This document shows positions 11,072-61,767 of a stretch of DNA of 64,000 bases, one piece after another (the first letter of the stretch is position 1; every line of letters starts with the position of its first letter). The notes beneath the pieces were generated by a model. It saw nothing but the letters and a program-made list of their open reading frames with translations, searched no databases and was not told the origin of the DNA. Location: the NCBI GenBank assembly GCA_033297075.1, contig MU858068.1, positions 186,001 through 250,000 of the forward strand, written 5' to 3'. This DNA comes from Rhypophila decipiens (lineage: Eukaryota; Ascomycota; Sordariomycetes; Sordariales; Naviculisporaceae). The position numbers and the translations under genes are program-made.

Positions 11072-13046
11072 TTAGCCAGAGCGGGGAGGCAAGCTTTCGC
11101 AGAAGTCCTTGTAGAAACTTGAGCTTCTCTTGCAAGTGTCAGCGAGAAGGTCGAGCTCATGGACTAGCTCGCTCGTTGTGATCCTTTTCTTCGGCTCGGG
11201 TTCTAGCATCCTTTCCTCGATAAGCTCCAGGAACTGCAGCGTATAAGCTGATCTATCCTTGTTCCTTTTAAGCTTGTTGATCCACTCCTTTACCCTTGGT
11301 TTGATGATTGCCTTTTGCTTCTCTTTGTCGATCACGTTACCATCCTTGTCCTTCTTGTAATTCTCGATGGTGAAGAAGGTATCAACCTCAAAGCCGTTGA
11401 TGTCCAACTCCATTCTGAACTCGATAAACTTGTCATTGACGGCTTCCCAGCCCTCGAGGTACCAGGTCAAGAACTCGAGGCACACGCATCCGAACGAGAA
11501 GACATCGGAGACCCGGGAGATCCTGCCGCCGGTCAAGTCAAACTCGGGAGCTTTGTAAGTCGCCGTTCTAGGGACTAATGTGGGATCCACGCCCGAGCGT
11601 GAGTACTTGGAGTTGAGCCGCCCGAGACCGAAGTCTGTTATCACCAGCCAGTCTCTTTCGTTGGGGTCATTACAATCCTCCTCCTCAAACCAGAGGATGT
11701 TTTCGGCCTTCATGTCGCCGTGGCGGCCGTAGAGCTCGGCTTGTTGATCTTTCCCATGGCCTGTGTTGTGTGACTTGCCCATGAGCTTCAGGTGGTGGTC
11801 TCGTTCGTTGTGGAAGAGCATGAGACCTTTTGCAAGGCAGGAGACCTGTTGTGACATCCAAAGCGCCCTGGGTATACGCTGCGATCTCTGCTGGTGTTCC
11901 TTCCAAAAGAGCCAGAGGTCGCCTTGGGCGCATGGGAACATGAAGTAGTACTTCGTCCCTTGTGCCTGCCTAATCTCGAAAGTGACCACCACTTTGATCA
12001 AGTGTTTGCTCCCTTGGTCTTGAACCCTCATCAATGAGGCTAGTTCGGCGCTGAAGGTTTCGCTGTCCTTCGAGTGCAGTTCTTTCAAAGCAAATTGCCG
12101 AGGCCCGCGTTTCCGATTCCAGGACTATAAGTTAATGGTTTCATATCAGCATGGACCTGGTACAGTGGGGACATGTTTCCGGGATAAAAGAAAGGCTGGG
12201 TAGACTTACTCCTAAATCAGACTCAGGGAAGTCGTAGTGACCCTCGTCCAATTCCACAATTCGAACCTCGCTGAACCCACTGACGATGGCGCCCTGTTCA
12301 TTTTCTGTCTCAGGCTTTTGATGTGCCGTCGGTGCATCTGGGGAGCTGAGTCTCTCGCGCGTCTTTTTGATGGGCAGAACATCGTTGTCTTCCAAGATAT
12401 AATGGCTGTGGTGACCAGTGAGGCGTGTGAAGTATGGGGATTTGACAGCATAGCTCCACTGGGAAATCTTGCGTCGCTTTTTGTCCCCCCAGGCGTCAAT
12501 TGTCGGATGCCTATGGCCCTGCATGCGACACGGCGGAGGATTCTTGTTCTTCTCACACACTCGGATTGGGAGGCACTGATCCGATACACCCTCCCCACAT
12601 AGGATCAAGAGTTGTTCTTGCATGCCGTTCCTGAGCAGGATGACGAGCAGTTTCCAGCGTTGCTGCTCGGGATTGTCTGGGAAGCAAATGCTGTCTCGTA
12701 GCTTTTCTTTCTCGGCAGCCGACAGAGCTTTGCAACATGTCAAAAGCTGCACGACTTGGAGGACACGATTCGGCGTGACGATGCCTCCAAGTTTGTCCCG
12801 CGGGAGAAAGAAGTTGTAGCCTCCGGTGGGATAGTGTTCCCAGATCTTTTCCAGCTCACACTTGATGTCCGAGATGACTGTATCATCTTTGTGTTCGCGG
12901 CAGCTCGAGTGGTCTGATATTTCCGGAGGAGGTTTGGAAGATGCTCTCTGGTAGACCCTCGGATATTGGCTCTCTCCCCGATCCAGACAAATGGTGACAC
13001 TTTTGTCATAAAGTCCTAACTGGCGATCTTTACTCGTAGAGTGCAT
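11072..13046 (-). CDS. Non-RD protein kinase A with family-specific N-terminal domain
   Basis: Predicted 629-residue Ser/Thr-like kinase. Exon 1 is 13046-12210 and exon 2 is 12124-11072; the intron has a GTAAGT donor, a TATAG acceptor and phase 0. I chose ATG at 13046 because frames further upstream begin without ATG. The kinase domain fills the C-terminal half: ALKEL (ATP Lys, about residue 290), HGDMKAENIL (catalytic loop, Gly replacing the Arg of HRD), TDFGLGR and YKAPEF, with a long insert near 11780 between the lobes. The N-terminal 280 residues contain FFLPRDKL, a helical stretch, a GVSDQCLPI motif and a later ISQW...SPYF motif. All of these recur in the kinases at 56619 and 59698. It is therefore one member of a local paralogous family; pathway unknown, and active catalysis is plausible. 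Confidence 0.85.
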
Positions 13047-15139
13047 GACGATTCGGGTGCGGGAATTCAGGATGTTCAGGCTGTGGGAGGGGATGATGAA
13101 AAACAAGTAGCAACGGGGAAGAATAATCTTTTACGGAGTAAAAGTGACCAGAAGCTCGATATGCAGTTTGCGAGCTATGATATCAACATAATTGCATAAA
13201 GGCTGCGCAAGGAAATTGGACAAAGATGGGCCGAGATTGAGTGACGAATTTGCTTTATGTATGTGTATCCTTATCCCTCGGCCACTCGTGACTGCCTTGA
13301 CCAAGCAACTTACCCCGAACCTCATTGATGCATCAGGCTTTACGCTGGGCAGGATGCCGGCTCCGTGGCAGCGATACGCATGTCAATCCATCTAACCTAT
13401 TATTCGTCCCACACCTTTTGGTTGCTAACCGCCCCATTTCCAACCGGTTTCTGCGGTCGTGGTGTTCTGGTGTGGCTGCCTTCAGTTGCCTGACCAGTCC
13501 TGCAAGCCACACCACGACCCTGCGTCTGCTTCCGGTAGTAAACTGGGATTTGTCCCGCGACCACGAGGTACCTCCATTAGAGGCTGAAATAGACAGGATT
13601 AGCATGGTGCCTCAACCGTCTAGCATTGCCTAGGTCTCGAGAGGAAGATTCCGCATACCTTGACCGAAGACTAGAGAGCGTATTTGTGGTAGGCAGGATC
13701 ATGTGTCTTGTCCCTGTTCCTTCAAGAGCGGCCATGGGCCATGAGTGAAGATGTCGAGGGGTGCGTGATTCGTGGGCGGCTCTTCTTGACCAGCGCCCCG
13801 CAAGGCAGTGACAGGAGGGCAAAGAAAGGGGGAGAGAGTTCAATCCGTGTCAAAGATTGCCCTGACCATCATCGCAATGCCTTTTTGCAACAAATGCTTT
13901 CATCTCGGCTGGTCGGTGAGATCCTGGCAAGAAATGATAAGGTATAGCACAAAGGGTACAGTTCTATGGTAGGAATACCACCTTAGGAAAGGAACTTCAA
14001 AGTGTAGTGGTGCGGAGGTTGAGTGGAAAAGGAGGTGTGCTTTGGTACATGTGGTTGGGGGCTATCACAATCAAAAACAAACAGTACTGTCCCCTTTCCG
14101 TTCAGCAGCGGACACTCATCTCGCCCGGTTACACCGTGACGGCTTTAAGGATCACCTTGTGGGACGCAAATGGTCCGCTTCCGCTGCAAATCTGCACGAT
14201 TAGGAGCCTGCAGGCGTAATGCGCTGTGGGCAAAATCAGGGGCTGAATTCTGACTTGCGCACCTGCACGATCCATCTCAGAGCCCGGCTTTTTATTGGTC
14301 AGGTCGTTCACCGATGGCTGGAGGACAGTCGACGGTATCTCATGGTAACTCAAGGTGGTTTTAAATCCGACGAGTCTCAGAACCGGTCGCGGCGGGTGGT
14401 CGTCACAAAATGTTTGGCTGGCTTCTAAGTTTCCGGGCCACAAGGCTTTCTTCAGAAAATCATGAACGAGAAGAGATACATTTCCTGGTGATGTGCTATT
14501 TTTATAAGCCAATCAAGTACTTTCAGTTTTTGCATCGCAAGTTAAATACAATCGTGGTCCCACTTCAACGATGCTGCGTGTAATTGCACCCTTGAGACAT
14601 TTACAACAGTATGTTCCTCAACCTATAATTTCAGCGCCTTTTATTTAGTATTGTTCTACACGCACACGCAGCGGACGAGGATTCGATAGAGCCTAGCACC
14701 AAAACACAGAGCTCAACCTTGTGGAAAGTTGCCCAGAAACAATTAGTCCATGGCCCAACAAAGTCAGAAACAGAATGGCTGGGGGGCGGGGCGGGGGGCG
14801 AGAAACAAAAAACTTTTCCAAAGATCAACACCTACTGATGTTCTCCTATAAAAACCGGCCTGTCTTGACATGATTCTCTTTCTTTTTTCCTTTTTTCCTT
14901 TTTTCCTTTTTTCCTTTTTTCCTTGCCAGGGTCTCAACCAACTTCCAGCTATCCCTGGTCCCCTGCCCATGCATATTGCATTGTTTACTTTCCCCCTTCT
15001 CGGAGCATACTGGTCTGCAAGCTTGGGCCTTAGACTCTCCATTCGCCACTTAAACACCTGAACGTCGCACGATTTTGTTCTTGTTGAACTAAACCAAACC
15101 ATACACCGTATATCGACTTCAAGTTCCCAGCCCGGGGAA
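13047..15139. other. Intergenic
   Basis: About 2.1 kb without supported genes. Short open frames overlap in several registers. The right part holds a pyrimidine tandem repeat and the probable promoter of the gene at 15140. Confidence 0.55.
14883..14922 (+). repeat. Polypyrimidine tandem repeat (TTTTTTCC)5
   Basis: Five perfect copies of an 8-base T6C2 unit, embedded in a longer CT-rich stretch, about 220 bases upstream of the small gene at 15140. CT-rich tracts are common just upstream of transcription starts in filamentous fungi. The perfect periodicity marks it as a microsatellite that may vary in length. Confidence 0.85.
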
Positions 15140-15490
15140 ATGGCACACGCAGACACGAACCACAGGCCTTCCTTGACCCACCCTGTTACCATGCTCTTGG
15201 GTCCTAAATTCCCTCAGCCAATTGTCTCTGCTATACAGAACGCACAGACTCCGAGCGAAGGAAATGGGGTCGAGATCGTTCTGCATTCAAATATTGTCAG
15301 CGGCAAGGAGCTGAAGCGAGCTCTGGATGACATGTTTCCAAATCCTCAAGAATACTATGTCCAGGTGAGTGTGATTTGCCTCTCGTCGGAATCAGACACA
15401 GCTAACCGAGAATAGTTACGGCGTGATCGATACCGGATCACACTGCCAAATCACAACAAGGACGATATTCAGCGATATGTGACTAAGTAG
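15140..15490 (+). CDS. Small hypothetical protein, RRDRY family
   Basis: Predicted 99-residue protein. Exon 1 is 15140-15364 and exon 2 is 15416-15490, around a 51-bp intron (GTGAGT...GAATAG, with GCTAAC as branch site). There is no secretion signal. The N-terminal part contains a proline-bearing LLGPKFPQPIV segment; the C-terminal part is YYVQLRRDRYRITLP followed by a short acidic/basic helix. It is the partner of the 84-residue gene at 10419: same RDR[YW] core, same intron position and same general size, although the N-termini have diverged. Function unknown. Confidence 0.65.
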
Positions 15491-16497
15491 GTGACCGTCT
15501 GGCATACCAGCGAAGTGCCCTTGGTCGGTTTATCAGGCAATGGGTGTAGTTGCATATACGGAAATCGGTTTTCGTATTACGCAAACTACTGGCTTCTTTG
15601 CTGTTACCAAAACTTTCAAGACTCTTGATATTTTGAGGTATTCTTGTTTGAATGGGTGCCATTTAGCCTCTACGAATGCTGACGGATAAGATGGCCTCCA
15701 ATTCCCTATCATAAGGCTGAACGGAGCATTATTCGGGGCTCACCTTCCACCCAGGACATCTGTTGGTCTAGAGTTATATTAGGACAATGTTTCGAGATAC
15801 GCGATAAGGTCAATAATAAAGCCAGTTACCCACATGCCATCCTCAAATAATGGATACACCGTGAACGGTGAAACCGCCCTACCTTCTTCATATATTCAGT
15901 TTCAATCCTTCCGCGGTTGTCATCACATCGTTTTGATGAGCCATGGGAATTCTAAAGATACAGGCGTAGTTCTTTAGGTAAAATGTAAGCGTAGCTAGTA
16001 GTCCTCTCTCTTGCCAACTTCCAAGCCCAATCCATGGGCTTGGACCCGCAGCCTTGTCATCGTTAAGTTCCTTACCTCACCTCTCTAATTTCACTTCGAA
16101 TGAGATATGCAGAGCTTTGTTCAGGTAGCGTTACTTTTCTTCCGAAGAAACCATTTTTCTATGAGTTCGCCACAAGTTTTGACGTTTCCAACGATTCTGT
16201 GAGTCGTGGAAATCTGGCGATGACCTCATTATCATCCCGTTTACAGACGTACAAGCCCCACTTTTCGAACAAGAACAATACGTCATGACTTTCCTTCCCT
16301 AATAACTTCACACTGTTAGTTTTATCGTGAACCCTCAAAGAAAGATCCACGACTTTCTCCGCTCTCTGATCAGTATAACATCGCCTTTTCCTTGTTCAAG
16401 TCTATCGTTCAATTGCTCCTCTCAATCCAGAACAGCAACAACAACCACGCCAGTCATCACATACAATCCTTACTTGAAAACAAAGGCATTAAACAAG
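15491..16497. other. Intergenic
   Basis: About 1 kb. No supported feature. The right end contains a CA/AAC-rich leader for the next gene. Confidence 0.55.
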
Positions 16498-33310: not shown

Positions 33311-35080
33311 ATGGGAAGACAAAGAACTTCCACCAAACCGCCGCCTGTCATCACCGACCTTCCAACCGAGATTCTTCTCAAGATTTTCGAGGAGTTTTGT
33401 CTACACTGCCGGCCCGGCGGATACACCCTAGTTAATGGAGAAGCTTTAGACATATTATACTTCGGCTAGTAAGTTCCTACTTCCCCTTGGGACTCGGGAG
33501 GCTAGACCCTGAATCAGGATTGTCTCTGCGTGGTTGCCCTGCCGTGCTCTACCAACTACCTACGCAGGGCTCGCAGGAGAGTGGAAGGGTGCTCACAACT
33601 CTCGCGGAATCAGTGGCCGGCAGCTACATAAGAAAAAAGCAGTCGGCATCAGAACATTGAAGAGTCTTGCCGAAACCTGCCAAAGATTCCGCTCCATCGC
33701 CCAGCCCATCCTATACCACACTATCCATATCCACTCCACAGTAACAAAGCCGCAGGGGATACTTCACACCACCCTTTTCGACAAGGAACATCTAGGCTCG
33801 GCTGTCAAGAGCATATGTGTTGATGATCCCGAGAAACTTGAATATGACAACGATTCCGAGGATTCCGAGGATGACTACAGTTACGAGGATGCCGAGGATG
33901 CCGAGGATCCCAACCACATCGCTACGAGGGAGCTTGTTTCCATCCTCACGCTCGCACCCAAGGTGGAGAATATATTTCTCCTTCTCCACCCTAATTGCCT
34001 CCGCGCCCTCAACGACGAGATAACCATTGTCGAGAGACAGCTCGAGGATAGAAACATTAAATCCTTGACCATCCTCTCCGATATGGCTGTCCCCGAGTAC
34101 GCCGATGATGGAGTGAATCTAGGACCCTATACCATTAATGGTGGCGAAGTGGGATTTCCCTCGCTCGATGATGCGGTGCCCCTCCTAGTTCTAAAGGTAG
34201 CTGCGCCCACACTTCGCTCTTTGGCAGCGTTTGCATCCATTCGGGTGAGCGAATCGTTCGCCCTCTCTCTGGGCCGCCAGACGTTACAAGACCCCGCGCC
34301 ACTCCAGAGTATCTCCGAGCTGATACTATGGGAGTCTGTCGTGGTTTCCGACAGCAGAAGAAACGCCTTGAATCTGGAAAGAATCCGGAACCTTCTGCGC
34401 GCCATCGGACCGAACTTGGCGAGTCTCGTGATCAGTGTCCCGAAAGTGTACTATGGTACGAAGCTGATTTCCTATGTCCTTCACAAGGATATTACGAAGT
34501 GGTGCTGCAGGAGCTCTTGGTCCAACTCCTTCCGTGGAAGAATACGTTACGCAAGCTGGTCTTTGGTAACATGAATGGTTACTCGTCCATCATAAGTTCC
34601 CTTCAAGACGAGACCTGGAGGAGTTTTGAAGTTAGCAACGATCGTGTCGGTGTCTTGGGTGAATTTGTAGCACTTGAGACGCTGACCATCCGAGCTGACG
34701 ACTACTTCCGCGGCGGGTGGGAAGACGGTCAGCTCCGTCCCGTTGACGGCCCTACCTTTGTATCAGCACTTTCGCCCTGTCTCAAGACACTGGTTGTGAT
34801 GGGACTCGGAGCGGCGGCTATATCGCCGGTACTGGACTCCCTACTGCTTAGCTATCTCGCCGGAAACTTGCCCGAACTTGCCAATATCGGGATTGAATTC
34901 ATTAGCCGCAGGCACGGACGCAGGGATAGGATTGCCAGACTGGAACGTATCCGACTGGCTTTCCTGAAGGAAGGGGTGACCTTTAGTAGTGGGCTCGAGT
35001 TTACCGGGCAAGGGTATAAGAATTCGAGTAGTAACATGAGTCGTTCTTCTCAGGAAATCCACGGTATTATAGAAGGATAA
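33311..35080 (+). CDS. F-box / leucine-rich-repeat-like protein 1
   Basis: Predicted substrate-recognition subunit of an SCF ubiquitin ligase. Exons 33311-33468, 33614-34434 and 34488-35080. The first intron (GTAAGT...GAATCAG) was chosen because it is the only acceptor that avoids a stop at the junction; it gives LYFGYGRQLHKKK. The second is a short 53-bp intron (GTGTCC donor, CTGATT branch, CACAAG acceptor) and the weakest part of the model; a one-base indel is the alternative. The F-box core is ITDLPTEILLKIFEEF, continued after intron 1 by LAETCQRFRSIAQPILYH. An acidic D/E/S-rich loop (33835-33910) precedes LRR-like alternating helices to the end. The neighbour at 35702 is a paralogue. Confidence 0.78.
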
Positions 35081-44785: not shown

Positions 44786-46748
44786 GATTGCGGTTTAAAG
44801 GATTGAAGTTCTGAAGACTATTGGTGAAAGGTATGATAATGAAGATCAGGCCTGCTGAACTGAAAGGGGCGACTAGAACAAATACAATTAGAGACGACTG
44901 TGTGATGGTAATTTGATGATAAATTGATGATAAATTGGCTGTATATCAAGCGGATTTCTTTCAGACTTATATAGCCAGATTTCGACTTTGTCTGATAGCT
45001 CGTATGATATTGACTGTATCCTGGTCCTCCATTCAAATGGTTGACTCCTTATTCCAGCTTGAAGATGTGTGTTTCTGGGCTTCGTGGTCAAGGACCCATA
45101 GACTCAATACGGCGACATGTAGACACACTGACTTTCTACTTGATATCCACTCATACTGCCATTGAATGGACGCAAGAGTGAAGCAACTAAGCTGTATCAC
45201 TGACGTTTGAATGCACTCCAAAAACCCGCCGATTAAGGTCATGGTAAGCTGATGGCCGATGGTCAAAGGCGAGCATTGTCAGAGCAAAGGTCAATATGGC
45301 CGAATCGTACTATACGATGCTTGGTCAGCGCTTTTTGGGGTCTTGTAGTTGGTCGATTGTCATTTTGAGCTTGAGAATTATCCATTGGGGACTGCTCCGG
45401 ATCGGATGTCTGCATACCTGGTCCATCTGGCATAATCTTAATGAACAGATTTGTTCACTCTCAGATTATGCAGCACGGATACTTCCGGACAACGCAACAT
45501 AGCCTGCCCAGATGTGCGACACCTGCTCGTTCATCGATTGGAGGCATCTACCCAGGTCCCAGGATGAGGGCCGCCAAGACTTGGTAATTCCCGTCTCCGT
45601 GGGCGATATCACAGAGTAAAAAAGGCCAAAAAGGGTAATCCAGGTGCCAACATCAAGCTAGGCGTATCGGCAGGCTTCCCTGAGAACGGTGATACGGGCT
45701 GCAGATGCCAGTTCCCGGTGACTCAAAGTCGAGATCAACTTTACGTGGATCGAACCCGAGCCAGCGAGTTATCGTGGGACAGGGGTAGCTCCGGCCAGTC
45801 AAGAGAACGGATGGCTCCGCCTCAGAAGGAGCTGCAGCCACAATACAGTACCGAAAGAGCGGCCTTGGACGGCAGTCAAATGGAGGGGGGCAAACACTGC
45901 TGGTACATGTACATACTCTGTACAACAGTGTACTTTGTCCAGGTGCCCGTTTCTTGACATGTAACACTGACATTGCGCATAAAATGGGCAGTCCAAAGCC
46001 GACACCCACATCGAGAAATGCACCATGCAGGCCTCGCTTTATCTTGTTGACAGGTCTTTCTGTGATCCCATCAGTGGTCCGACGAACACTGCAGATGGGT
46101 CGGGAAGGTTGTGGACTAGAACCAGGTACCGGTGTCGGTAAGATAGGCACCCGGAAAGACTCTTGCTGCTAAAATTGTTACCTGGATACGTGTAGTTACA
46201 AAGAGGTTGGCGACAAAGCAACAGACAAAAATACTGGCAAGTCGATATCTATGACATACACCGGATAGGACATAGAATACAGATACGGAAGCAAAACCAA
46301 GAAGCTGCAGTCATCATCTTTTTCCCGCCAATGTCCCAAGCTCAAGTCCTGGATCAGGCAACCAGGCTTACAAGATGAATTTATTTCACCGCCCTCTCTC
46401 TACCCCTCTCTCGCACGTTGGTTTAGGCATTCCACTTCTTTGCTTTTTCCTCTTTTCCAACATCACCTGTGGCGTCCCAACATCCTGGAATTCAGGCAAG
46501 GGCAAAACTTGGCATCTGTTAGTGCAACCCTAATCTTGACTCCCAAACCTTAACAGGTCTGAGGTAACTCTTCAGCTGACGTCTTGAATCCTGGCAGGGA
46601 TCCCTTCAAGGTTTAGCGGTCCTCAAGGTTCACTGCTCAGTCTCTTGACTCACTCGGCTTGATACAAACCTGAACTTTGTATCTGGTACCAATCTCCACC
46701 CCGCTTCTCCTTCTTCTCATTTAAATATTCCATACCCCCCAGCTTGAG
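44786..46748. other. Intergenic
   Basis: About 2 kb with no supported gene. A 165-codon minus-strand frame (45653-46150) lacks any domain and is not called. The last 300 bases are a pyrimidine-containing leader for the AAA+ gene. Confidence 0.5.
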
Positions 46749-49322
46749 ATGGGGAGAGTGATTGGTCTCGGCAACGATTACAGCAGCGACAGCGACAGTG
46801 ACAGCAGTTACTACTCCGGACGCCAGGGCAGGATTCACCGCCTAAAGAACAAGATGAAGGTCAAGATGCCGGACCGCGATGCCATGTCGGAGACGCTGTG
46901 GAAATGGCGTTGCAAGATCAAGGGCAACAACCACGAAAAGACGCTGGCTGACTTTGAGTCGTCCGAGACGGCCGCGGTGCACGATGGGGCGGCTACTCCT
47001 ACTGGCGGCCCAAAGAACCTCGATCTTGGGACAACTGCCTCGGTCAAGACCATGTTCGAGGGCCCCAACAGCCGCGAGGGCGCCTACGATTGGGTTGAAT
47101 ACCCGCCCAAGCAGCTGAGCAAGAGCGCGGCCAAGGCTCAGAACCGTGTTGCCATCAAGGTCTACAAGATCAAAGACGACGAGAAGCCCGTCTACGCTGG
47201 CCACTATGCGCTGCGCTACCACATGATCGAGGTACAGAACCTTCTTCTGGTCGGCGAACTCGTCTCCATCATGCGAGATCAGAACCTTCACCTCGACTCG
47301 AACGAGGCGGCCACGTTCAAGTACCCCTTCAGCCAGCTCTATTTTGGCTACGACAACATAGTGGCCCGCCACGGCGAACTCAAGGAGGATGAGCCCGTCA
47401 AGCCCTTCATGCTGCTCATGATTAAGCTGCTGGACGACATCTTTGCCGAGGCCCGAGCCAAAGTAGCGAGTCTTCGTTCCAGCGGGCTCACCACCTTCAA
47501 GCTCGCCTGGACCCTTTTCCCATGCGCCGAGACCGTCATCTCGTGGGGCAACAACTGCGAGATGCTCTCCCGTGTCAAGGATGCCGAGTACACATTCATC
47601 AACAATACCAAGGTCCTCGCCGTCACCGGCCGTGTCCTCCGCTTCACCGGCCGGGCTTTCCAATGGGAAGACTACCGACACGAGATCAAGGTTTTTGAGG
47701 GCAACAAGAAGATCACAGATCTGCCTGCCTATCCGCTTTCGTTCTACGAGAAGGACCAAGAGGTGGTCAGGGAACGATGCATTGCTCGTGGGGCCAAAGT
47801 GCTTGACTACCAAGGGCTGGCTTATGTCAATTACAGCGGCATCGCTCTGCACCTCGACGCCGACAAGGACGTGTGCCGTGTCAACGTCGACGGCCGAGTA
47901 CTCATCGACGTGGTAGGCTACAACAAGCACCATCTGGCCAAGGGGTCCCGCGAAGGCACCGATCCGCAAACTGCAAGCCGCGTGCTTGTGGTGGGTAGCG
48001 GCGATGGACATTCGGATTCCGAAGACGACGACGACGATGCCATAGAATACTACAAGACACCGACTACAACACACGCCTCCTCTGCCAGCCGTCACGCTGC
48101 TCGCACTCGTCACGGCACCCGTGGAGGCCACCACCCTCCCCCGCCTCCTCCTCCAGGGTTTGGGTCTGCTGGAGCGAGCAAGGTCAAAAAGAGCAACAAG
48201 CGTCTCAGCGCCCGCCGCCAAGACCGCAACAAGAAGGCCATGCTCGGTCCCAAGCACAAGGAACTGCTCATGTACATGGTGCCCATGATCGAAGGCTACG
48301 CGCTCAAGAACAAGCTCTGGGTGAGCTTCTATCTCGAAGACATCTCCCCGCTGGTGTGGAACGACGCGGCGTATGACCATCTCGTCTACGACGAGCAGCA
48401 AAAGGACCTGGTCATGTCGTTTGTAGAGAATCACCAGGGCAGTCACATCAGTGCTGTGCCGCCTCCTTCGACGTCTGTCACTCGTCGGGATCGAACATCG
48501 GCGCGTCGTCATCATCCCAAGTTGATGGATGTCATTGCCGGCAAGGGAGAGGGTCTCATCATGCTGCTCTCTGGTCCTCCTGGAACAGGAAAGACGCTCA
48601 TGGCCGAGGCTGTTGCGGATCGGACCCATCGGCCCTTGTTTTATCTGCAAGCCGAAGACCTGGGTACCAACGCTGCAGTCTTGGGCGCGAATGTGAAGAA
48701 GGTGTTTGAGATGGCTACCGAGTGGGACGCTGTCGTCTTGCTTGACGAGGCGGATGTTTTCATGGCTGAACGGCACCCGCAGGATATTCTGAGGAACGAG
48801 CTCGTTTCCATCTTTTTGCGGGAGTTGGAGTATTTCAGGGGCATCATCTTCTTGACTACGAATCTGTATAGTACTATTGATAGTGCCTTTCGTAGTCGTG
48901 TCAGTCTGCATTTGCTGTTTACCCCGCTCACAGTCGAGGCGAGAATGATTGTCTGGAGGAAGTTTTTGGATAGGGTCGAGGGGACTGAAAACAAGGAGAC
49001 TGAGGCTGAGAAGAGGGTGAGTGAGGTCACGATCACGGAGGAGACTGGCGAGGGGAGTGAAGCGGAGACAAGAGAGGAGCTCGCTGGCGAGGAGGGAGAA
49101 GGATCTCACAAGAGCGCGCTGACAGAGGAGGACCTCAAGGAGCTGGCGGCTTGGAGCTTGAACGGGCGGGAGATCAAGACGGCCGTCAAGATGGTCCGGA
49201 GCTGGTGCGATTACAAGGGCTACGAGATGACACTTTCTCGGCTTGAGAGCGGCATCAGGGTTACAAGCCCACATGCGGCCAAGTCGTCGGGAGGGACTGA
49301 TACGTCTTTATATGACGAATAG
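46749..49322 (+). CDS. AAA+ ATPase with DUF7025-type N-terminal domain, complete
   Basis: Single-exon 857-residue protein and complete paralogue of the gene at 1-1521. The N-terminus has a serine/aspartate run and a basic patch. A globular DUF7025-like region follows (HYALRYHMIEVQNLL, LAWTLFPCAETVISWGN, KVLDYQGLAYVNYSG), then an acidic D-rich stretch, a six-proline run and a basic linker. The AAA+ core has WNDAAYDHLVYDE before Walker A (SGPPGTGKTLMAEA, about residue 607), Walker B (VVLLDEADVFM, about 660), sensor 1 (LTTN) and the arginine-finger segment FRSRVSLH. A glutamate-rich insertion (about residues 740-795) precedes the lid helices (LNGREIKTAVKMV). Catalysis should be intact. The family is expanded in Pezizomycotina and its cellular role is not settled. 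GC-rich coding on both strands produces a long antisense shadow frame. Confidence 0.93.
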   Translation: MGRVIGLGNDYSSDSDSDSSYYSGRQGRIHRLKNKMKVKMPDRDAMSETLWKWRCKIKGNNHEKTLADFESSETAAVHDGAATPTGGPKNLDLGTTASVKTMFEGPNSREGAYDWVEYPPKQLSKSAAKAQNRVAIKVYKIKDDEKPVYAGHYALRYHMIEVQNLLLVGELVSIMRDQNLHLDSNEAATFKYPFSQLYFGYDNIVARHGELKEDEPVKPFMLLMIKLLDDIFAEARAKVASLRSSGLTTFKLAWTLFPCAETVISWGNNCEMLSRVKDAEYTFINNTKVLAVTGRVLRFTGRAFQWEDYRHEIKVFEGNKKITDLPAYPLSFYEKDQEVVRERCIARGAKVLDYQGLAYVNYSGIALHLDADKDVCRVNVDGRVLIDVVGYNKHHLAKGSREGTDPQTASRVLVVGSGDGHSDSEDDDDDAIEYYKTPTTTHASSASRHAARTRHGTRGGHHPPPPPPPGFGSAGASKVKKSNKRLSARRQDRNKKAMLGPKHKELLMYMVPMIEGYALKNKLWVSFYLEDISPLVWNDAAYDHLVYDEQQKDLVMSFVENHQGSHISAVPPPSTSVTRRDRTSARRHHPKLMDVIAGKGEGLIMLLSGPPGTGKTLMAEAVADRTHRPLFYLQAEDLGTNAAVLGANVKKVFEMATEWDAVVLLDEADVFMAERHPQDILRNELVSIFLRELEYFRGIIFLTTNLYSTIDSAFRSRVSLHLLFTPLTVEARMIVWRKFLDRVEGTENKETEAEKRVSEVTITEETGEGSEAETREELAGEEGEGSHKSALTEEDLKELAAWSLNGREIKTAVKMVRSWCDYKGYEMTLSRLESGIRVTSPHAAKSSGGTDTSLYDE

Positions 49323-49541: not shown

Positions 49542-50600
49542 CTAGATCGAATGAGACCTTGTCCTCAAGCTACATCCGATTGACGTGTCTTTCTGCCCTT
49601 CCTCGATGGTACCAATTAGGTCACCAGTTTGTTTGTACACCGCACTCTTCTTTTCCAATGATGAAGCACATTGCGGACGTTGGCCTTTCTTCCGACGACA
49701 GGGTGAAACCCACTCCAGATTTCCATCAAAACACCTCCAGTTTGAGGAATTCACAGCAATGGTTTGTGCAGACTCTGGGATTCCGTCTTGCCCATCCTGG
49801 ACTTCTAGATTTGACCCGATTGGTTCAAGATATTGTTCTGATTCTGGTCCCATACGACGAGCTAAGACAGAAGATGAACGACGATACTGATGTGGTTGTG
49901 TTGTTTCTCTTCCGTGGACTTCTGGATTTGACCCAATTGGTTCCAGATATTGATCTGGTTCCGGTCCCATATGGCGAGCCAAGGCAGTAGAAGATGAACC
50001 ATGATACTGATACTGCTGCGGTTGTCTTGTGTATTCAGGGTAGACCAAATAGCTGGTACGAGAAGGACGGTCCCTCCTGCTGCGAGAAATCCGGATGTGC
50101 GCGGACTTGGGGTTGCTACTGCTCTCGTCCTTTTCACTTTCCCTCTCGGATCCGGATCCGCTGGAGCTCTCATCTTGGTAATAGTACCTCTTCGTGTTGG
50201 TGGCTTTTGGTTGCGAACTCGGCTTAGAGTTGCTGGGAGGGGCTTCGGCTCTTGGGGCTCGGTCCCTTCTCCTCCTGACATCTCCTGTTGAGGTGACTGA
50301 CGTTAGCAATGAGCGCGCTCATCATTACTATTGTCGAGATTATGGAATAGAAACTTTAGATCACGCACCCGCAGCTTCTCGCAATCCTTCAGCTGAGTTA
50401 GAAATCGTCACATTGAAGGAGGAGGGATGTGGCGGTAAATGGCATACGTTCGCCACAACCCGAGGTATGCTGGACTTGTACACCGTACGAGTCATATTCG
50501 TGGGCAGAGTGTCCGAATGGATTGCATTTATGCCCAATGTGCCTATTCCTGTATTCCGTTCTTCAAAGAAGATAGGGGGACATTGATTTTCCGGGAACAT
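49542..50600 (-). CDS. Hypothetical protein with 39-residue tandem repeat, paralogue fragment of the gene at 51021
   Basis: Predicted 324 residues: exon 1 50600-50369, exon 2 50284-49542 (GTGCGT...CAACAG). The junction reads AAG-DVRRRRDRAPRAEAPP, matching VSG-DVRRRTDQVPRAEPPP in the gene at 51021, so the two share a segment by descent. The shared part ends soon after. The rest is an S/E/K/R-rich disordered region followed by two copies of a 39-residue unit (LARHMGPEPDQYLEPIGSN and LARRMGPESEQYLEPIGSN). The large C-terminal domain of the neighbour is absent. The first exon has no recognisable similarity and is the least certain part. It may be a chimeric or degraded relative. Confidence 0.5.
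49798..50031. repeat. 117-bp direct tandem repeat, two copies
   Basis: 49798-49914 and 49915-50031 are adjacent copies of the same 117-base unit with scattered substitutions and no net indel. The unit length is a multiple of three and encodes 39 residues in the minus-strand gene, consistent with selection for frame at the time of duplication. Confidence 0.85.
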
Positions 50601-51020
50601 GGTGGGCGAATAAGGCTGATGTCAAATTGACGGAGAATGATACATGTATTGATTGTCGTGGTCTTTGAAAGGACTGATGAGGAGCAAGGGAAAAGAAAGC
50701 TGCGATCGGCGAAGGGGTACCTGTTTACATAGAGGCCTCCGGACTGTGTGCCTCGCTGTGTGCTTCACGCAGGGCGGCGCCACATTCCGGGTATATCAAT
50801 TGGACCACACACTGCGATAAGCGTGCTGTCATCCTTACTCAGTATCTATTCAACAGAATTTTCAGCTAGAAATGAGTGACATATTGAAGACACCATTACA
50901 TAAATCTGATCTTCGTTCTAGGACTCGCCAATATTCCTTCAAGGTCTTTTGGACAAGTCTTCTTATATCATAAATTTCTCTCTTCATAAATCCGAATCTG
51001 CTTATAAAGCAGCATGTTTC
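50601..51020. other. Intergenic
   Basis: 420 bases; nothing supported. Confidence 0.6.
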
Positions 51021-52553
51021 TCACAAAGAACCACTGCTGGCGATTCCAACAAGATTCTCCATATCCTTGTCCCAGGCCATGACCCACCCTGGAAACATAT
51101 ATATGCCCAGTATCTGCTCATTTGCATCAACTACAAAAACAGAGTCCCATCCTGGATCATACTCAAGGCGCAAGTAGTCTGTCGGCAGTGACCACCCTAA
51201 TCTGGAACATGAAGGGAACCAGCCTAGAAACCGCAAGTCCCCCTTTGGTAACCGTTTAATTGAAGTAGCAAAACCCTCTTTGAATGAAACCAAATACATG
51301 GCGTCGAGGTGCGAAAAGAGAACCTGCTCGGAGTTGTCATTTAAGCTTGGCAAGGTCTTGACGCGGAAGTTGTCAAATTCTTTGGCGCGGAGGCAACAGC
51401 GCTCAAATTCGGCTCGATCAACACCCGAATAGATCCAGTCAATATATTCATCCAATCTCTCGCCCGAGTGTGAGGGTGAGTCGAGTATGAGATTGCAAAG
51501 CATTTCCAGCCTATCCTCCAGTGAAGACGGGCCCATTAGAATCAAGTCCTCGGAAAACTGGACAATATTGGCGACATAACTGTCAACAAGGGCCTGGGAC
51601 ACCAATGTGCCAACAATAGGTCGACTGCTTCGTGGCCGTACCGTAATATTCCGTATGACAGACACTAGGTCCAGGTGAGCTTGTCGCGTGGAATATGGTT
51701 CAGAGGTTAAAACATGGAAACCCTGATGCTGATGTAAAACCTCAGTCTTGACGCGTTCCATGACCATTCTCTTGTGACATAGGGCAGGCTCAGGGGAGTC
51801 CAGGGTTCCGTCGTCCAGTGTTGCGTAGAATCTGTTGAAAAGAGCTTCATCGAGATAATCGCGACGCTGCCGGTCCAAACGGATAACGTATTGTTGCAAG
51901 TCCATCGCCCATTCTTCACCATTCGGGCGGATACTGCTTTCCAGTTCTCTCTTTGTCTTTGCTTGAGCTAGTACTCTTTTTCTCTTTAAACCCATGGTTC
52001 GATTGAGCTGTCGTTGGTGTTTAACAGCGGGCCACGTTTCCTCTAGGTGCCGCATTGTCCGGAAGGTCGACATCCGCTGCATCTCTTCATCTTCCAGTGC
52101 ACTTCTGTCGGCACTAAAAGATGCAGGTGTTTCTGCCAAGACTGGCCTCCGGGTCGGCTTCTTCACAGCGGCCTTAGCATGTGCAGGCTTCCGGTTCCTA
52201 TCGAAGTCGTCACTCTCGGAGCCGCTCGAGTCTCCATTCCCCGGGTGGTTGGAGCCATTTCGCTGGGGGCGTCGAGAGGAAGAGGTTTGCTGAGAGCTTG
52301 CGCTTGATGTGGCGCGGTTTGTGGGAGGAGGTTCGGCTCTTGGCACCTGGTCTGTTCTCCTTCTCACGTCTCCAGAGACTTCCCAGATTTTGGGCTCTGG
52401 AGCCAGTGTAAACCCGTCATCCGCACATTCCTGTCGAACAAATTTGATGGGTTTGACAATGTTTGGCGATGCATGAGACTGGCCAGATGCGTTCAGCGCC
52501 TTGCGCGACTGCTGAGGGCCCTCTGAGCTTGTGAGAGGTTGGTCGGGAGACAT
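51021..52553 (-). CDS. Hypothetical protein, disordered N-terminus and helical C-terminal domain
   Basis: Single-exon 510-residue protein starting at the first ATG (52553). The N-terminal 170 residues are disordered, rich in S/P/R/N, and contain SGDVRRRTDQVPRAEPPPTN, the segment shared with the gene at 49542. After a basic helical stretch (MGLKRKRVLAQAKTKRELE) comes a globular domain of roughly 300 residues (MDLQQYVIRLDRQRRDYLDE, LVSVIRNITVRPRSSRP, LDEYIDWIYSGVDRAEFER). It ends in a W-rich beta segment (RFLGWFPSCSRLGWSLPTDY, GWDSVFVVDANEQILGIYMF). No family recognised. The C-terminal WDSVFVVD and GIYMFPGW strands resemble the beta sandwich of SMI1-like folds only loosely, so I make no assignment. 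Confidence 0.8.
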   Translation of the reverse strand: MSPDQPLTSSEGPQQSRKALNASGQSHASPNIVKPIKFVRQECADDGFTLAPEPKIWEVSGDVRRRTDQVPRAEPPPTNRATSSASSQQTSSSRRPQRNGSNHPGNGDSSGSESDDFDRNRKPAHAKAAVKKPTRRPVLAETPASFSADRSALEDEEMQRMSTFRTMRHLEETWPAVKHQRQLNRTMGLKRKRVLAQAKTKRELESSIRPNGEEWAMDLQQYVIRLDRQRRDYLDEALFNRFYATLDDGTLDSPEPALCHKRMVMERVKTEVLHQHQGFHVLTSEPYSTRQAHLDLVSVIRNITVRPRSSRPIVGTLVSQALVDSYVANIVQFSEDLILMGPSSLEDRLEMLCNLILDSPSHSGERLDEYIDWIYSGVDRAEFERCCLRAKEFDNFRVKTLPSLNDNSEQVLFSHLDAMYLVSFKEGFATSIKRLPKGDLRFLGWFPSCSRLGWSLPTDYLRLEYDPGWDSVFVVDANEQILGIYMFPGWVMAWDKDMENLVGIASSGSL

Positions 52554-53036
52554 GGTCACGAAAAGTGTTGTAAAAGTTATATGATTGGGACTGGAAATTG
52601 AGAGTCGAGAAACGGTGGGGTTAATGGATGGGGGAAGCCACGATGAGGCCTCCAGGTCATTGATTCGGGGAAAGCCTTAACAGAGCGCCTCCTGCAGGTC
52701 ACCGGATCAGGGTGGTATGTACCGTACATACTTTACTGTCGGTACCGTCCATAGGTTCCCGGCCACCGCAGTCACAGTGCAGATATCGCAAAGCACAACC
52801 TCGAAGTTCGGCTCTGGAAATTGATTTAACTACTTTCAGCGGTCACAAGTTATTTCTTTCTCCACGCATAACAAGTTGCCGAGCGAAAATCCAAGTACGT
52901 GCTTGACGACGGATACACCTCAAAGGCTCAAACTACCTATGTGAAAGCCGATGATTACTCCGTTACATGTATCAAGGGCATATCAGGGACGTGGATGAAG
53001 TTGTATGAACGGTTCTTCGCAAGCTGACACGGTTAA
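52554..53036. other. Divergent intergenic region
   Basis: About 480 bases forming the promoters of the hypothetical gene (minus) and the DUF6594 gene (plus). No other feature seen. Confidence 0.6.
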
Positions 53037-56618: not shown

Positions 56619-58199
56619 TCAAGTGAATGATATAGAAGAGTCGACAGATGATTTGGATGCGTCTGAGAGTGTTCGGTCCTTGGTGCTTCTCCGGAAGAAG
56701 TCGGGGGCTTTGATAGGGCTATCTGTCTCTTTACCCAGGTAGGATGGATTGTTGACGGCCTTTTGGAGAATTTCGCTCAGTCGTAGGTGCAGATCTGGGG
56801 CTGGCAACCGCCGTTTTGGCTCGACCTGAAGAAGATGGGTTTTGACCAGGTTGAGCAGATCGCCTCGGGCTGTGTCAGAGCCACATCTGGGATCGGCCCT
56901 GAGCTTGACAAATGCCCTTTCCACCGCGGGATGAAGATCCATAGTATGTCGCTTAAAGAAGGCGCCGTTTGGATCAGAATAATCGCCAGTCCGGGTCTTG
57001 GTTGTCCTCCTTTTCCGGAATATATCAACGGCTTCGTACCCATAGAGCAACCATACCGTGAACTCCAGCAACATGCATCCCATTGGCCACGAATCGTAGC
57101 GGCGCGACCTAGGTTGGTCATGGTCGGGGTGGTCGTTTTCGGCTTCAGGCGCCTCGTAGCCTATGGTAGTCTCGCGAGTCATGGTCGGGTCGCACCTTAG
57201 ACCCGTCAGGTTGTAGTGATGCTTGGATATGCCGACGTCCGCCAGTACCAGGGTGCCACATGATGATGCATCTTGGATGAAATGCAATACATTCAGCGGC
57301 TTGATGTCGCCGTGGCGAATGTTCTTCTCGTAAAGGAGACTGACAGCCTCAACGAGACCAACTATTTGTTGAAGAAACCAAATAGTCAGGCCGGGGGTCC
57401 TTGGTGTCGAACTCTCTCGCCGCCAAAAGTCCTCCAGATTTCCTCCCTCAGCCCACTTGAAGACGAGACAGCAGGAAGAGGGCGTCTGGTAGCTTGCGAG
57501 AAGCCGGATGAGATGTTTGGTTCCGAGGTCTTGTATCATGTCCAGTATCTCCTTTTCTCTGAGAAAGGTAGGCTTATCTCGGAACTCCTTGATGGCGAGA
57601 GAGAAGCCAGGGGCTGCAAACGGAGCATGGCTGTGATGGAAGCGGGCTTTATGGATGAACACGCGTGTTCCTTGCGCCTTGACAAGACTGCTTTGAGTGA
57701 TGGGCAGGGGCCGGTCGGCAGTGAGCACCAAATGCTCTCCGGTCTGGAAGAACGGGGCCAGAAAGATCCACTGTTTTTGGAGAAACTCATCAACTCTTGG
57801 TTGGAGCCAGGATCCGAAAGAGGGGAACTCTTTGCCTGTTTTGACAGACCGAACCTTGTTCTTGCCTGACTTTTCACATGAAGTCAAACACAGAGGGAGG
57901 TCACCGTCGTGGATATCGTCACCAAAGACCAAGCTGACGATGGCCGACTCCTGACCTATCAAGACCAGGGTAGCGAACACCTTTGGTGCCTGGCAATGGA
58001 TCTTGAATGGTGGTGACTTCACGTTGGACCAACGGGAACGAAACCAGTCAAACCAGGAAAGCTTGGCTGCGATGCTGTCCGGGGTAATCTCCCTTACCAG
58101 CACCTCGTGGGGAAGGAACTTGGAAACTAGGCTGTTCTCGTCGCTGTTGGGGTCCCGGGCGACCAATTCCTTCGTGATGCGGTAGTAAAGATCAGGCAT
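56619..58199 (-). CDS. Non-RD protein kinase B with family-specific N-terminal domain
   Basis: Single-exon 526-residue kinase, paralogue of those at 11072 and 59698. The N-terminal 190 residues hold KFLPHEVLVREITPDSI, VFATLVLIGQESAIVSLVF, DDIHDGDLPLC and LQKQWIFLAPFF, in the same order as in the other two. Kinase motifs: LAIKEF (ATP Lys, about residue 203), HGDIKPLNVL (catalytic loop with Gly for the HRD Arg), LADVGIS (DVG in place of DFG), YEAPEAE (APE) and a D-x-WPMGCML helix. Activity is plausible since the catalytic Asp, Asn and Lys are present. The glycine loop is poorly defined. The C-terminal tail is S/K/D-rich, probably a phosphorylated regulatory tail. Pathway unknown. Confidence 0.9.
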   Translation of the reverse strand: MPDLYYRITKELVARDPNSDENSLVSKFLPHEVLVREITPDSIAAKLSWFDWFRSRWSNVKSPPFKIHCQAPKVFATLVLIGQESAIVSLVFGDDIHDGDLPLCLTSCEKSGKNKVRSVKTGKEFPSFGSWLQPRVDEFLQKQWIFLAPFFQTGEHLVLTADRPLPITQSSLVKAQGTRVFIHKARFHHSHAPFAAPGFSLAIKEFRDKPTFLREKEILDMIQDLGTKHLIRLLASYQTPSSCCLVFKWAEGGNLEDFWRRESSTPRTPGLTIWFLQQIVGLVEAVSLLYEKNIRHGDIKPLNVLHFIQDASSCGTLVLADVGISKHHYNLTGLRCDPTMTRETTIGYEAPEAENDHPDHDQPRSRRYDSWPMGCMLLEFTVWLLYGYEAVDIFRKRRTTKTRTGDYSDPNGAFFKRHTMDLHPAVERAFVKLRADPRCGSDTARGDLLNLVKTHLLQVEPKRRLPAPDLHLRLSEILQKAVNNPSYLGKETDSPIKAPDFFRRSTKDRTLSDASKSSVDSSISFT

Positions 58200-59697
58200 T
58201 GTTGGCGGGTAACTCGGATAGTGGCGACGTGCATGTAGATGGTCGCATTAGACTGATTCCAGTGTATCGGGTACTGGTGCAGTGGTGATGCTGCTGGTAG
58301 AGTCCGCCTTGTGCTGCGGGTATGAGCTGTCAAAGGGACGGTATGGACCCGATGGCGAAAGTGGAGAGGGGAGAAAAGAGCACAACTGCCAATCAATCAT
58401 GTTGCAGGGCGAGGTAATATATGAGAGTTGACGAATCTGTAGCCGGCCAAGGGGGAAGGAACGACCTTGAGGCTCTGCCCTCCTTTCCTTGCATCATCTC
58501 ATTCTCCGCTGCATCTTCGTATCCCCACGCTTTGCCCAGGCTCCCTCCCTTCTGAAGAGATGTACATCATATTTCCCAATGTCATACTTACTCATTGACA
58601 TGTCGGAACTTTTTGAAAGGGTTGTGGAAACAAGGCATAGCATTCCCCGATATTGTGGCGTCTTTTTGGGCAGTGCTGGCTGGATCTGGACCGACCTTCG
58701 GCACGACTTCCTTCAACTTCTATCACAGAAGCCGGGCGTAGGCTACCTCCAAGTGGGTGACAATGACGCGGGGCCGACGCGCAACATGGCTGTCATGGCA
58801 TTATCAGACTCTATCTTTATCCGTGACGCGGGGAGGAAGGCGTGAAGGGGGTGTGTGGGGAAGTGGTAAGGCAGGAGTGACTGAATCTGGGTTTGGTCTA
58901 GCCAATGAAGAGACCCTGCCCTACCAGGAAAGAGTCATGCACGGGATGCACACACCACTTCTTCCTTCCTGCTTCCCTCCCACTTATCTTCAGACATCAA
59001 ATAGCTGTTGTCGACGCTCGGTGAATCTGCACCTTAAAGTGAGGGGAAGTCAATTGATGCCCAACCACATATGGACACCTTTTTGAGAGCTGCAAGACCC
59101 AATGGCTCATCCAGCCATTGGTCGGTCGTCGACCATGACCAAATTCCAATTCCCCAATCCTCCATGACGGACTTTGGAATGGCTTCATGCCCTCCTCAAG
59201 CACGCGGCAGGCCGAGAGCACAGCCACACTGATTGGGCAGGCGCTAACATGTACAGCACTGGACGGTACATGATCAACTGACAATACTTGTTGGAGCGAG
59301 GATGGCATGGCCTGTAATGATTCGAAACGAGATGTTTTATTGTAAGCAAAGCCGTGAAGCTATTCCACCACGGCCCAGTTCTACAGTTTTGATGTATAAC
59401 ATGCTGATGTAGATTACCGCCAAGCACCTACCAGGTAGGTTGTCAGGTATTGCAGGTTAACTATTAACCTTGGAATACTGTACCTGGTAAACAAGGTACC
59501 TAAGGTTGTTTCCCGTTGGCCCAACTTCCCAAGGCATGGTAGACCACCATCAGTGGTCTTGTTCAACTTGCGGCATGATGAGTTTGATGGGCTTGACACT
59601 TGACGACGATTCGTGGCCTTCCCAGGATTAAGCACACATGGAGCTAGCTATGAAGAGTAGACGGCCTTTTAACTGATCTCCTCGTCCGATTGTCGTT
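58200..59697. other. Divergent intergenic region between kinases B and C
   Basis: 1.5 kb separating two paralogous kinases transcribed away from each other. No gene is supported; it probably contains both promoters. Confidence 0.6.
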
Positions 59698-61767
59698 ATG
59701 GAGTTGTGTTCTTGTCCACTTGTTCCATGGCTTCGCCAGACGACTGAGATGCGACCCCCTACAACTCCTACTGGGACCAAGCAGCGGAGGGTAAAGTTCA
59801 AGTTTTGGGGCTCTGAGAAAAAGCCCTTGGTGCCTTCGGTGCCTTCGGTAGTCTCGGATGAGCTCGATTCGTTGCGCAGTCTGATACGGACTTCTTTTTT
59901 CACTGTCAAGGACGGCGCAGATCGCCGATTTCTCCCGGCTGGGTGCATCAGGAACTTTACCAACCCTCAGAGGGTCGGAGCGGCACTGTTTCCCGAGAAC
60001 CCTGGTAGCAACCGCGACTTGGTCAGATTTGTTACCGAGAAGGCCAGAAGGATTTTTCTATGTCTAGTCCAGCAACAGCATCTCTGCGCAGCTGATTTGG
60101 TCCTCTTGATGAAGGACTGTCGGAAGAATCGCATTGATGACAGCTCACTTCCCATCAAGTGCCACAGGCATTCATCCGACCCAGAGCATAACCCAAATAC
60201 TGCATGCGCTCACCATCAGATGTTTCATGGTCATCTATGGGGCAGGGTTCTTTGGGACCTACAGGAACACCTCCAAGGTCCTCTCTTGTCTCCAGTCTTC
60301 ACGAGGAAATTCGAGACGTACCGACTGAGCTCCAAGTGTGCACTACCCCTTACCAACCTGAAATCAACAGGAAAGGGTGGCCACTTCAGCGTCGTTCACA
60401 AAGCTCTGCTTCATCGTGATCATCTTGAGACGGATGGAGCCTCAGATTGGACTTTTACGACCGAAGGTACCCGGAGCGGCTTTCAGCTAGCCATCAAGGA
60501 TATGAGCAGCAGCAACGAATCCCAAGACAAAGTCGAGGATATATGGAAACACGAGGTGCACTGTCTCGGCAAACTCAGCGACCTGCGCCACCCACATCTT
60601 GTCCGTCCACTAGCTGCCATTGAGCAGGCTCCCAAGTACTATATCATGTTCGAATGGGCTGATGGGGGCAGTCTCCGCGATGTCTGGAACAATCAAGGGC
60701 ACTCTCCCCTCAGTCTCACTCAAGACCGCATCATGAGTCTGCTTGAGCAGTTTTGCGGTCTTGCTGGAGCCCTTTCTGCTATGCACAACACATCGGGTGC
60801 AGCGATGACGACTTTCGGCAACCTTTCGAGTGTTAGCACCCCTTCGCGAACATCTCGCGAATCTCGGACGCCAACATTCAAGGCCACGCCAACTGCATCC
60901 TCCCAAAATCTTCAGGTTCCAGAGCTCCGGTTCGACAACAGCTCCGAGGACGGCTCCTACATCAGTCAAGACGAGGTCCATTGGCGTCATGGAGACTTGA
61001 AGCCTGACAACATCCTCGTGTTCAAGGCGACGTCCAATTCGAGTGGCTGGCTAGGGACGCTGAAGATTGCGGATCTGGGCCTTGCCAAGCAGCATGTACT
61101 CAGTACATCACGAAGAATGGAGAGGACAGGTCAGAGGTACACGACATCCCGATATGAGGCACCGGAAGCTATGGATTACTACAACAAGCCGAGATCACGC
61201 AAATACGACATCTGGTCCATGGGCTGTATCATGCTCGAATTTGTGATACTTCTTCTCTACGGAAAACGGGGCTTGGATCTTTTCTACAGCGAGCATAAGA
61301 ACGACAACCATGCAACTGACACGCTCTACTTCACCGTCACTGACGCACGGGGCGGTACTGCCGAGGTCAGCAATATTATCGACTATTGGATCGGAAAGAT
61401 ACTGCAAGATCGTGAGTGCTCTCGGGAGGAGGGGAGCGCGCTAAGAGATTTGGTGTTGCTCGTCAGGGACAAGCTTCTGGTGGTTGACCTGCAATATGCG
61501 GACATGACGGTCCCGGGCGGTACCGGCGGTGGCGGTTTATCCCGGATAGGAGCGGGCGAACTGCAGGAAGAGCTCAAAAGAATATTGAGAAGGGCCAGGA
61601 AAAAACCGAGTTACATCGTTTTGAGAGAGCGCCGGGCCGACGTGGCCGTTCCAGGAACTTGCCCTGGCGGCAGGAGGATCAAAACCAGAGGCCAAAAGTC
61701 ACGGTCGATGTTGGGAGATGACCTTCCTCGGACCCATGTTTCAGAGACTGCAAGGAATCAAGTATGA
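59698..61767 (+). CDS. Non-RD protein kinase C with family-specific N-terminal domain
   Basis: Single-exon 689-residue kinase, the longest of the three paralogues. The N-terminal region shows RRFLPAGCIRNFTNPQRV, RRIFLCLVQQQHLCAADLVL, a RIDDSSLPIKC motif and LQEHLQGPLLSPVF, collinear with kinases A and B. The kinase domain begins with a clear glycine loop (GKGGHFSVV), then LAIKDM (ATP Lys), WADGGSLRDVW, HGDLKPDNIL (Gly for the HRD Arg), IADLGLAK (DLG) and YEAPEAMDYY. Between the helix before the catalytic loop and the HGD motif lies a Ser/Thr-rich insertion (about 60800-60960), a possible autophosphorylation site. The C-terminus is basic with a Gly-rich loop (61515-61545). Likely an active kinase; partner and pathway unknown. 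Confidence 0.9.
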   Translation: MELCSCPLVPWLRQTTEMRPPTTPTGTKQRRVKFKFWGSEKKPLVPSVPSVVSDELDSLRSLIRTSFFTVKDGADRRFLPAGCIRNFTNPQRVGAALFPENPGSNRDLVRFVTEKARRIFLCLVQQQHLCAADLVLLMKDCRKNRIDDSSLPIKCHRHSSDPEHNPNTACAHHQMFHGHLWGRVLWDLQEHLQGPLLSPVFTRKFETYRLSSKCALPLTNLKSTGKGGHFSVVHKALLHRDHLETDGASDWTFTTEGTRSGFQLAIKDMSSSNESQDKVEDIWKHEVHCLGKLSDLRHPHLVRPLAAIEQAPKYYIMFEWADGGSLRDVWNNQGHSPLSLTQDRIMSLLEQFCGLAGALSAMHNTSGAAMTTFGNLSSVSTPSRTSRESRTPTFKATPTASSQNLQVPELRFDNSSEDGSYISQDEVHWRHGDLKPDNILVFKATSNSSGWLGTLKIADLGLAKQHVLSTSRRMERTGQRYTTSRYEAPEAMDYYNKPRSRKYDIWSMGCIMLEFVILLLYGKRGLDLFYSEHKNDNHATDTLYFTVTDARGGTAEVSNIIDYWIGKILQDRECSREEGSALRDLVLLVRDKLLVVDLQYADMTVPGGTGGGGLSRIGAGELQEELKRILRRARKKPSYIVLRERRADVAVPGTCPGGRRIKTRGQKSRSMLGDDLPRTHVSETARNQV

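Follow-up and report, generated by a model that had tools for sequence, protein, structure and literature searches.

Three protein kinase genes, here termed K1, K2 and K3, are encoded in a 64,000-nucleotide stretch of the Rhypophila decipiens genome (Naviculisporaceae; contig MU858068.1, positions 186,001 to 250,000 of the forward strand; hereafter the window). All three code for a common N-terminal domain followed by a kinase domain, and K3 is followed on the same strand by a frame coding for a HET domain, the module that sets off self-destruction upon fusion of unlike fungi. The features of these loci, in window coordinates, are as follows.

11072..12124, minus strand: K1 exon 2, kinase (FALK, HGDMKAEN, TDFG; catalytic residues; Pkinase 49.4 bits for the whole of K1)
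12125-12209, minus strand: K1 intron, 85 nucleotides, GT-AG, phase 0 (rebuilt from the DNA)
12210..13046, minus strand: K1 exon 1, coding for the N-terminal domain and the first part of the glycine-loop region of the kinase (rebuilt from the DNA)
12354..12821, minus strand: K1 N-terminal domain match, amino acids 76-231 (21.0 bits, profile without window sequences; AlphaFold2 model)
56619..58199, minus strand: K2, single exon, 526 amino acids, N-terminal domain and kinase (HGDIKPLN, DVG), without HET (Pkinase 66.7 bits)
57636..58136, minus strand: K2 N-terminal domain match, amino acids 22-188 (79.0 bits, profile without window sequences)
58200..59697, no strand assigned: upstream region common to the divergent K2 and K3 (start codons at 58199, minus, and 59698, plus)
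59698..61761, plus strand: proposed first exon of K3, N-terminal domain and kinase (HGDLKPDN, DLG; Pkinase 83.4 bits)
59872..60414, plus strand: K3 N-terminal domain match, amino acids 59-239 (130.7 bits, profile without window sequences; AlphaFold2 model, see below)
61762..62343, plus strand: spacer with six predicted candidate phase-0 introns (61762-61829, 61833-61969, 61973-62051, 62055-62148, 62152-62251, 62258-62343)
62344..64000, plus strand: exon with the HET domain, proposed to form the 3' part of K3 (its frame stays open beyond the window, to 64503)
63019..63507, plus strand: HET domain, PF06985 (96.6 bits against a cut-off of 22.5; C24:249019-249507)

Rebuilding the genes from the DNA confirmed the coordinates and gene reading of the three kinases (11072-13046, 56619-58199 and 59698-61767) in a first-pass annotation made from the sequence alone. 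The K1 product comprises 629 amino acids (13046-12210 joined to 12124-11072, minus strand), while the K3 open frame (59698-61767, plus strand) codes for 689 and ends with a stop at 61767. The kinases had been described as dispersed, which holds for K1 only; K2 and K3 stand next to each other in head-to-head orientation, with 1.5 kb between them. The Pkinase (PF00069) scores of all three exceed the Pfam cut-off of 31.7 bits. As had been reported, HGD replaces HRD in each protein, making them non-RD kinases, and the DxG motif varies between DFG (K1), DVG (K2) and DLG (K3). The VAIK-type lysine, catalytic aspartate, asparagine and DxG aspartate are retained in all three, which suggests active non-RD kinases and not pseudokinases. 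In Pfam searches with an expectation value (E) of up to 10, neither a NACHT or NB-ARC domain nor a match to the FunK1 fungal kinases (PF17667) was found in the K1, K2 and K3 proteins.

The N-terminal domains of K1, K2 and K3 share only about 20% pairwise identity, near noise, and comparison of K2 with the first exon of K1 alone is marginal (E 0.079). A 93-row profile of the domain from which the window sequences were excluded nevertheless recovered all three kinases among the 932 window open reading frames of at least 40 amino acids (K3, 2.8e-39; K2, 2.1e-23; K1, 3.3e-6), with no other convincing match (next best E=1), and the domain common to the three kinases is thus real, as the first-pass annotation had claimed. 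K1-like loci of the same genome bridge K1 to the family, as shown by C110 (E 5.8e-33 against K1 and 1.3e-19 against the N-terminal domain profile). With an iterated profile, 92 sequences out of 124 were scored as having the domain, K1, K2 and K3 among them. The domain comprises, in order, an F-L-P motif, D-x-x-L-P, Q-W-x-F-x-x-P and an L-P immediately ahead of the glycine loop, with the proline of F-[LVI]-P, the leucine and proline of D-x-x-LP and the proline of the final LP invariant in an 18-row alignment. Of the motif series described earlier, the third motif is in full Q-W-x-F-x-x-P-x-F, with a wider QW-to-P spacing in K1; the "HL" of that description was shifted, the actual K3 version being QGPLLSPVF.

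No Pfam family matched the N-terminal regions of K1, K2 or K3 at E up to 10, the HeLo, HeLo-like, SesA and Goodbye domains included, and no PDB sequence match was obtained for the K1 region or the 18-row profile. AlphaFold2 returned a confident helical model for K3 residues 40-240 from 42 sequences (predicted local distance difference test, pLDDT, 87.6; predicted template modelling score, pTM, 0.82), with helices at 14-27, 42-48, 51-58, 67-76, 78-85, 92-104, 134-137 and 140-157. The K1 model, from 34 sequences, is weaker (pLDDT 76.3, pTM 0.69), with helices at 2-17, 29-35, 38-48, 56-67, 77-85, 91-97, 127-130 and 133-147 and two short strands not in the K3 model. The order of the helices is the same in both, the K1 input alignment having contained K3-type sequences. 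Foldseek and VIA comparisons yielded no convincing fold relative of either model in the PDB, and the HeLo or HeLo-like four-helix bundle was not among their rows. The N-terminal regions therefore neither match a known domain nor prove unrelated in structure, K1 having been folded together with K3-type sequences, and the earlier description of the domain as undescribed agrees with the lack of a Pfam family, a PDB sequence match or a convincing fold match for K3 and the weaker K1 model. These data support an uncatalogued helical domain. A protein search for the domain outside kinases, using residues 8-205 of homologue P0077, returned P0077 alone.

Of 7994 candidates scored against K3 residues 40-520, 526 proteins had an E of at most 0.001, and the best 120 of these were listed; the search covered homologues of 0.55 to 1.75 times the query length, hence up to about 1206 amino acids. 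The K2 N-terminal region retrieved K2 itself and one homologue. In the homologue set (P0002-P0122, n=121) a regular-expression search found the HGD catalytic loop in 120. The one exception, P0025 of Immersiella caudata, contains a degenerate HGDLSPDK and AGLG and is likely a pseudokinase. Named sources among the best 120 of the 526 include Fusarium, whose kinases are abundant, Colletotrichum, Xylaria, Podospora, Lasiodiplodia, Elasticomyces and Hyphodiscus, presumably all Pezizomycotina; the Podospora relative P0013 (P. pseudoanserina) is annotated without HET. A separate R. decipiens locus (C6:31024-34278, L058) scores 45.8 bits for the N-terminal domain and encodes HHDLKPQN instead of HGD, while C86:26694-40500 (L024, L025, L028, L059) holds three family kinases within about 11 kb, two on the minus strand and one, with HET, on the plus strand.

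The N-terminal domain was detected at E < 1e-5 in 89 of the 121 homologues and is nearly whole in 72. The other 32 have at most 235 residues ahead of HGD, and for this reason look like truncated gene models. The suggestion that the domain serves as a variable recognition module is not borne out by this distribution; its constancy in the family makes a fixed regulatory or scaffold part of the kinase likelier. K3 and P0003, its nearest relative, are 43% identical in the N-terminal domain and 61% in the kinase, and for K2 and its orthologue P0002 the values are 55% and 61%, respectively, indicating that the N-terminal domain diverges faster than the kinase in these two comparisons.

A C-terminal HET domain (PF06985) is present in 29 of the best 120 homologues; 23 of the 29 also match the N-terminal domain, which is nearly whole in 15. 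This fraction probably underestimates the true share, since the length range excluded fusions as long as the 1413-amino acid product proposed below for K3. A domain scan of ten long homologues of the 120 showed only kinase matches. The R. decipiens genome (45.7 Mb, 408 contigs) contains at least 151 HET matches. Of 23 family loci listed in it, 22 match the N-terminal domain with an E of 0.01 or less and one (C152) does not, the HHD locus on C6 being excluded. A HET match follows on the same strand, no more than 3 kb downstream, at six of the 23 family loci and at none of 102 other Pkinase loci, with a Fisher p of 2.2e-5 that is merely indicative because related loci are non-independent. Within 5 kb downstream on the same strand the counts are 6/23 and 1/102, and within 5 kb on any strand or side 9/23 and 2/102. 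A link to fungal non-self recognition, as anticipated in the first-pass annotation, is thus supported indirectly but substantially by HET fusion, by HET proximity and by K3 itself, though not by NACHT or NB-ARC domains in K1-K3.

The frame downstream of K3 (62335-64000) contains the HET domain. The K3 stop sits inside CAA-GTATGA, a plausible splice donor, and K3 is therefore probably incomplete at 61767, its gene perhaps continuing into the HET frame. The candidate GT-AG introns of the spacer are divided by microexons of one or two codons (GAG, ACA, TAC, AAA and CACGCT), after which the spliced frame would continue RLDTTWEYAVENDFA, giving a predicted product of 1413 amino acids that ends at 64503 and is co-linear with fused homologues. 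The end of the fourth intron (62148) was picked to hold the frame, replacing the first acceptor found by script. All 27 of the 27 HET-motif homologues align to the K3-adjacent frame, nine of them beginning at 62341-62359, where the linker starts, and the rest further in. Arrays of candidate introns parted by putative single-codon microexons are located at 61762-62343, C86:36250-37100 and C108:55750-56500. Among the 26 candidate introns in the six kinase-HET spacers of this genome, seven are chained at exactly +3 nucleotides (three in K3, two each in C86 and C108 and none in the other three spacers), while 569 background candidate introns gave one chain at +3, eight at +9 and five at +7. In this post hoc test, the pattern having been noticed while viewing the same spacers, none of 1000 first-order Markov shuffles reached seven chains (mean 0.011); the shuffles held a mean of 6.7 candidate introns against 26 in the real spacers, which accounts for part of the contrast. 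If confirmed by RNA, such arrays of single-codon microexons would be unusual in themselves.

Alternatively, K3, ending at 61767, and HET may be two adjacent genes, HET starting from a small exon closely upstream of 62344 and the two perhaps acting in trans, with the adjacency a relic or a precursor of fusion. A separate HET start downstream of K3 is possible, as a short ATG exon followed by a GT was spotted by eye just upstream of 62344, and the annotation of several relatives in the Sordariales shows no HET. The K3 tail through NQV and the stop is also kept in P0003, whose gene model stops there, but a conserved CAA-GTATGA donor would equally yield this ending. The chain of phase-0 introns and the fused homologues favour a single gene, and at C115 the kinase and HET frames are merely 39 bases apart (49851 and 49811). 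Two genes are considered rather unlikely.

Divergent pairs of one HET-bearing and one HET-less member occur at three loci in this genome: K3 and K2, 1.5 kb apart; C86, with a minus frame ending at 33885 and a plus frame starting at 34374, HET being on the plus member; and C108, with a HET-bearing minus member at 58359 and a HET-less plus member at 59186. The members of a fourth divergent set are 4.4 kb distant (C86:152855 and 157298). Universal pairing was rejected, as a head-to-head partner within 2 kb exists at only three of the six HET-bearing loci. For P0002 (relative of K2) and P0003 (relative of K3) alike, the source is given as Naviculisporaceae sp. PSN 640 with a longest contig of 252,980 bases, and a K2/K3-type pair is therefore probably linked in this strain too. 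In a tree of about 165 residues, K2 and P0002, together with the members without HET from the C86 and C108 pairs, cluster with the HET-bearing C108 minus member and P0122, with supports ranging from 0.23 to 0.99, which is only suggestive of a clade of HET-less pair partners.

We favour, with some reservation, the view that K1-K3 represent a family of intracellular non-RD kinases of filamentous ascomycetes with a fixed helical N-terminal domain, partly carrying a C-terminal HET death domain, which would function as a non-self or damage switch. The sequences demonstrate the homology of the N-terminal domain, preserved catalytic residues, a conserved HGD, fusion to or proximity of HET and the paired layout; the cue, the cell death, the role of K2 and the joining of K3 to HET by splicing are inferred. 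The N-terminal domain would control or assemble the kinase, a non-self or damage cue would alter its state, and the non-RD kinase would serve as the switch by which HET, in cis in K3, is released or clustered and the cell killed. K2, which has no HET and faces K3 head to head, would be a likely partner or regulator, and K1 a more distant member without HET. Several observations weigh against this proposal. HET is not seen in 91 of the best 120 homologues within the length range searched, and at 17 of the 23 family loci in this genome, K1 and K2 among them, no HET is listed within 3 kb. The abundance of HET genes here means that HET may join many partners, and for C115 and C21 no head-to-head partner was found in the stretches covered. 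Furthermore, the catalytic activity of the plant non-RD kinase EFR is reported as dispensable in a passage of PMC8463890; a catalytic switch is therefore not given, and a scaffold or conformational switch is equally open.

The constancy of the N-terminal domain, which is not swapped, would suit ordinary signalling kinases in which it is an extension of the N-lobe and to which HET, being common and mobile, has become attached in some lineages with no common non-self role. The absence of HET from most listed homologues and loci, including the K1-type loci without HET within 3 kb, points the same way. This explanation is nonetheless improbable, to about the degree of the two-gene model, as HET association within 3 kb is limited to this family among the kinases scored and the loss of the HRD arginine is nearly invariant. 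That kinase-HET proteins are annotation artefacts is very improbable: gene predictors can merge close neighbouring genes, but co-linear models occur in several genera, and at six loci the raw DNA of this genome has kinase and HET in this order on one strand.

The proposed kinase switch resembles several known systems in part. According to sections of PMC9815663, HET domains induce cell death and are remotely related to TIR. The HET incompatibility proteins (PF06985), such as HET-E of Podospora, share with the family the HET cell-death domain, found at K3, and large numbers per genome. HET-E joins HET to an NLR (NOD-like receptor) with WD40 repeats, as described in part of PMC9815663, whereas in K3 HET follows the N-terminal domain and non-RD kinase, with no NACHT match. 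According to a portion of PMC4986451, the N-terminal domains of fungal NLRs include kinases, but K1-K3 are without a nucleotide-binding domain or repeats, and the order in this family is domain-kinase-HET. In HELL-kinase proteins and MLKL/RIPK a kinase or pseudokinase is likewise coupled to a death module, as outlined in a passage of a 2025 review (PMC12881547); K1-K3 have no HeLo or HeLo-like match, and here the death module would be the C-terminal HET. Non-RD kinases are linked to innate immunity in a section of PMC8463890, in keeping with the immune hallmark invoked in the first-pass annotation. The plant and animal non-RD immune kinases may be compared with K1-K3 by analogy, in the absent HRD arginine and a proposed immune role; no receptor ectodomain was seen in K1-K3, none having been sought, and orthology is not claimed.

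Fusarium genomes contain on average 41 unclassified kinases, expanded and lineage-specific, according to a part of PMC6001611, in the main text of which 'HET', 'heterokaryon' and 'HRD' do not occur. The present family may cover part of these. Searches of the open-access literature on kinases with HET or non-self turned up no report of HET-linked fungal non-RD kinases or of the domain-kinase-HET family, subscription papers being outside their scope. In Cryphonectria, vic4 is a kinase gene at an incompatibility locus. It is described as without a HET gene in a passage of PMC7849911. The new part of the system is the domain-kinase front end, HET-coupled non-self machinery being already known. To our knowledge, upstream activators of HET domains outside NLRs are poorly known, and the K1-K3 family suggests a testable kinase-based non-self alarm in fungi. 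With a defined domain, conserved motifs, a nearby HET exon and the Podospora relative P0013, the question can be tested in a laboratory fungus. More speculatively, and slightly less probably than either principal alternative above, the head-to-head non-RD kinases with their new helical domain might be a fungal kinase-based counterpart of paired plant NLRs, with a HET killer and a sensor or safety catch, the microexon array acting as a splice-controlled fuse.

Elsewhere in the window, the minus-strand neighbours 49545-50318 and 51024-52676 have a GDVRRR..(D)..PRAE stretch in common, the latter frame matching no Pfam family with an E of 0.01 or less. Two fungal AAA ATPase genes are also encoded, at 490-1518 (AAA with AAA_lid_13) and 46725-49319 (DUF7025 with AAA).

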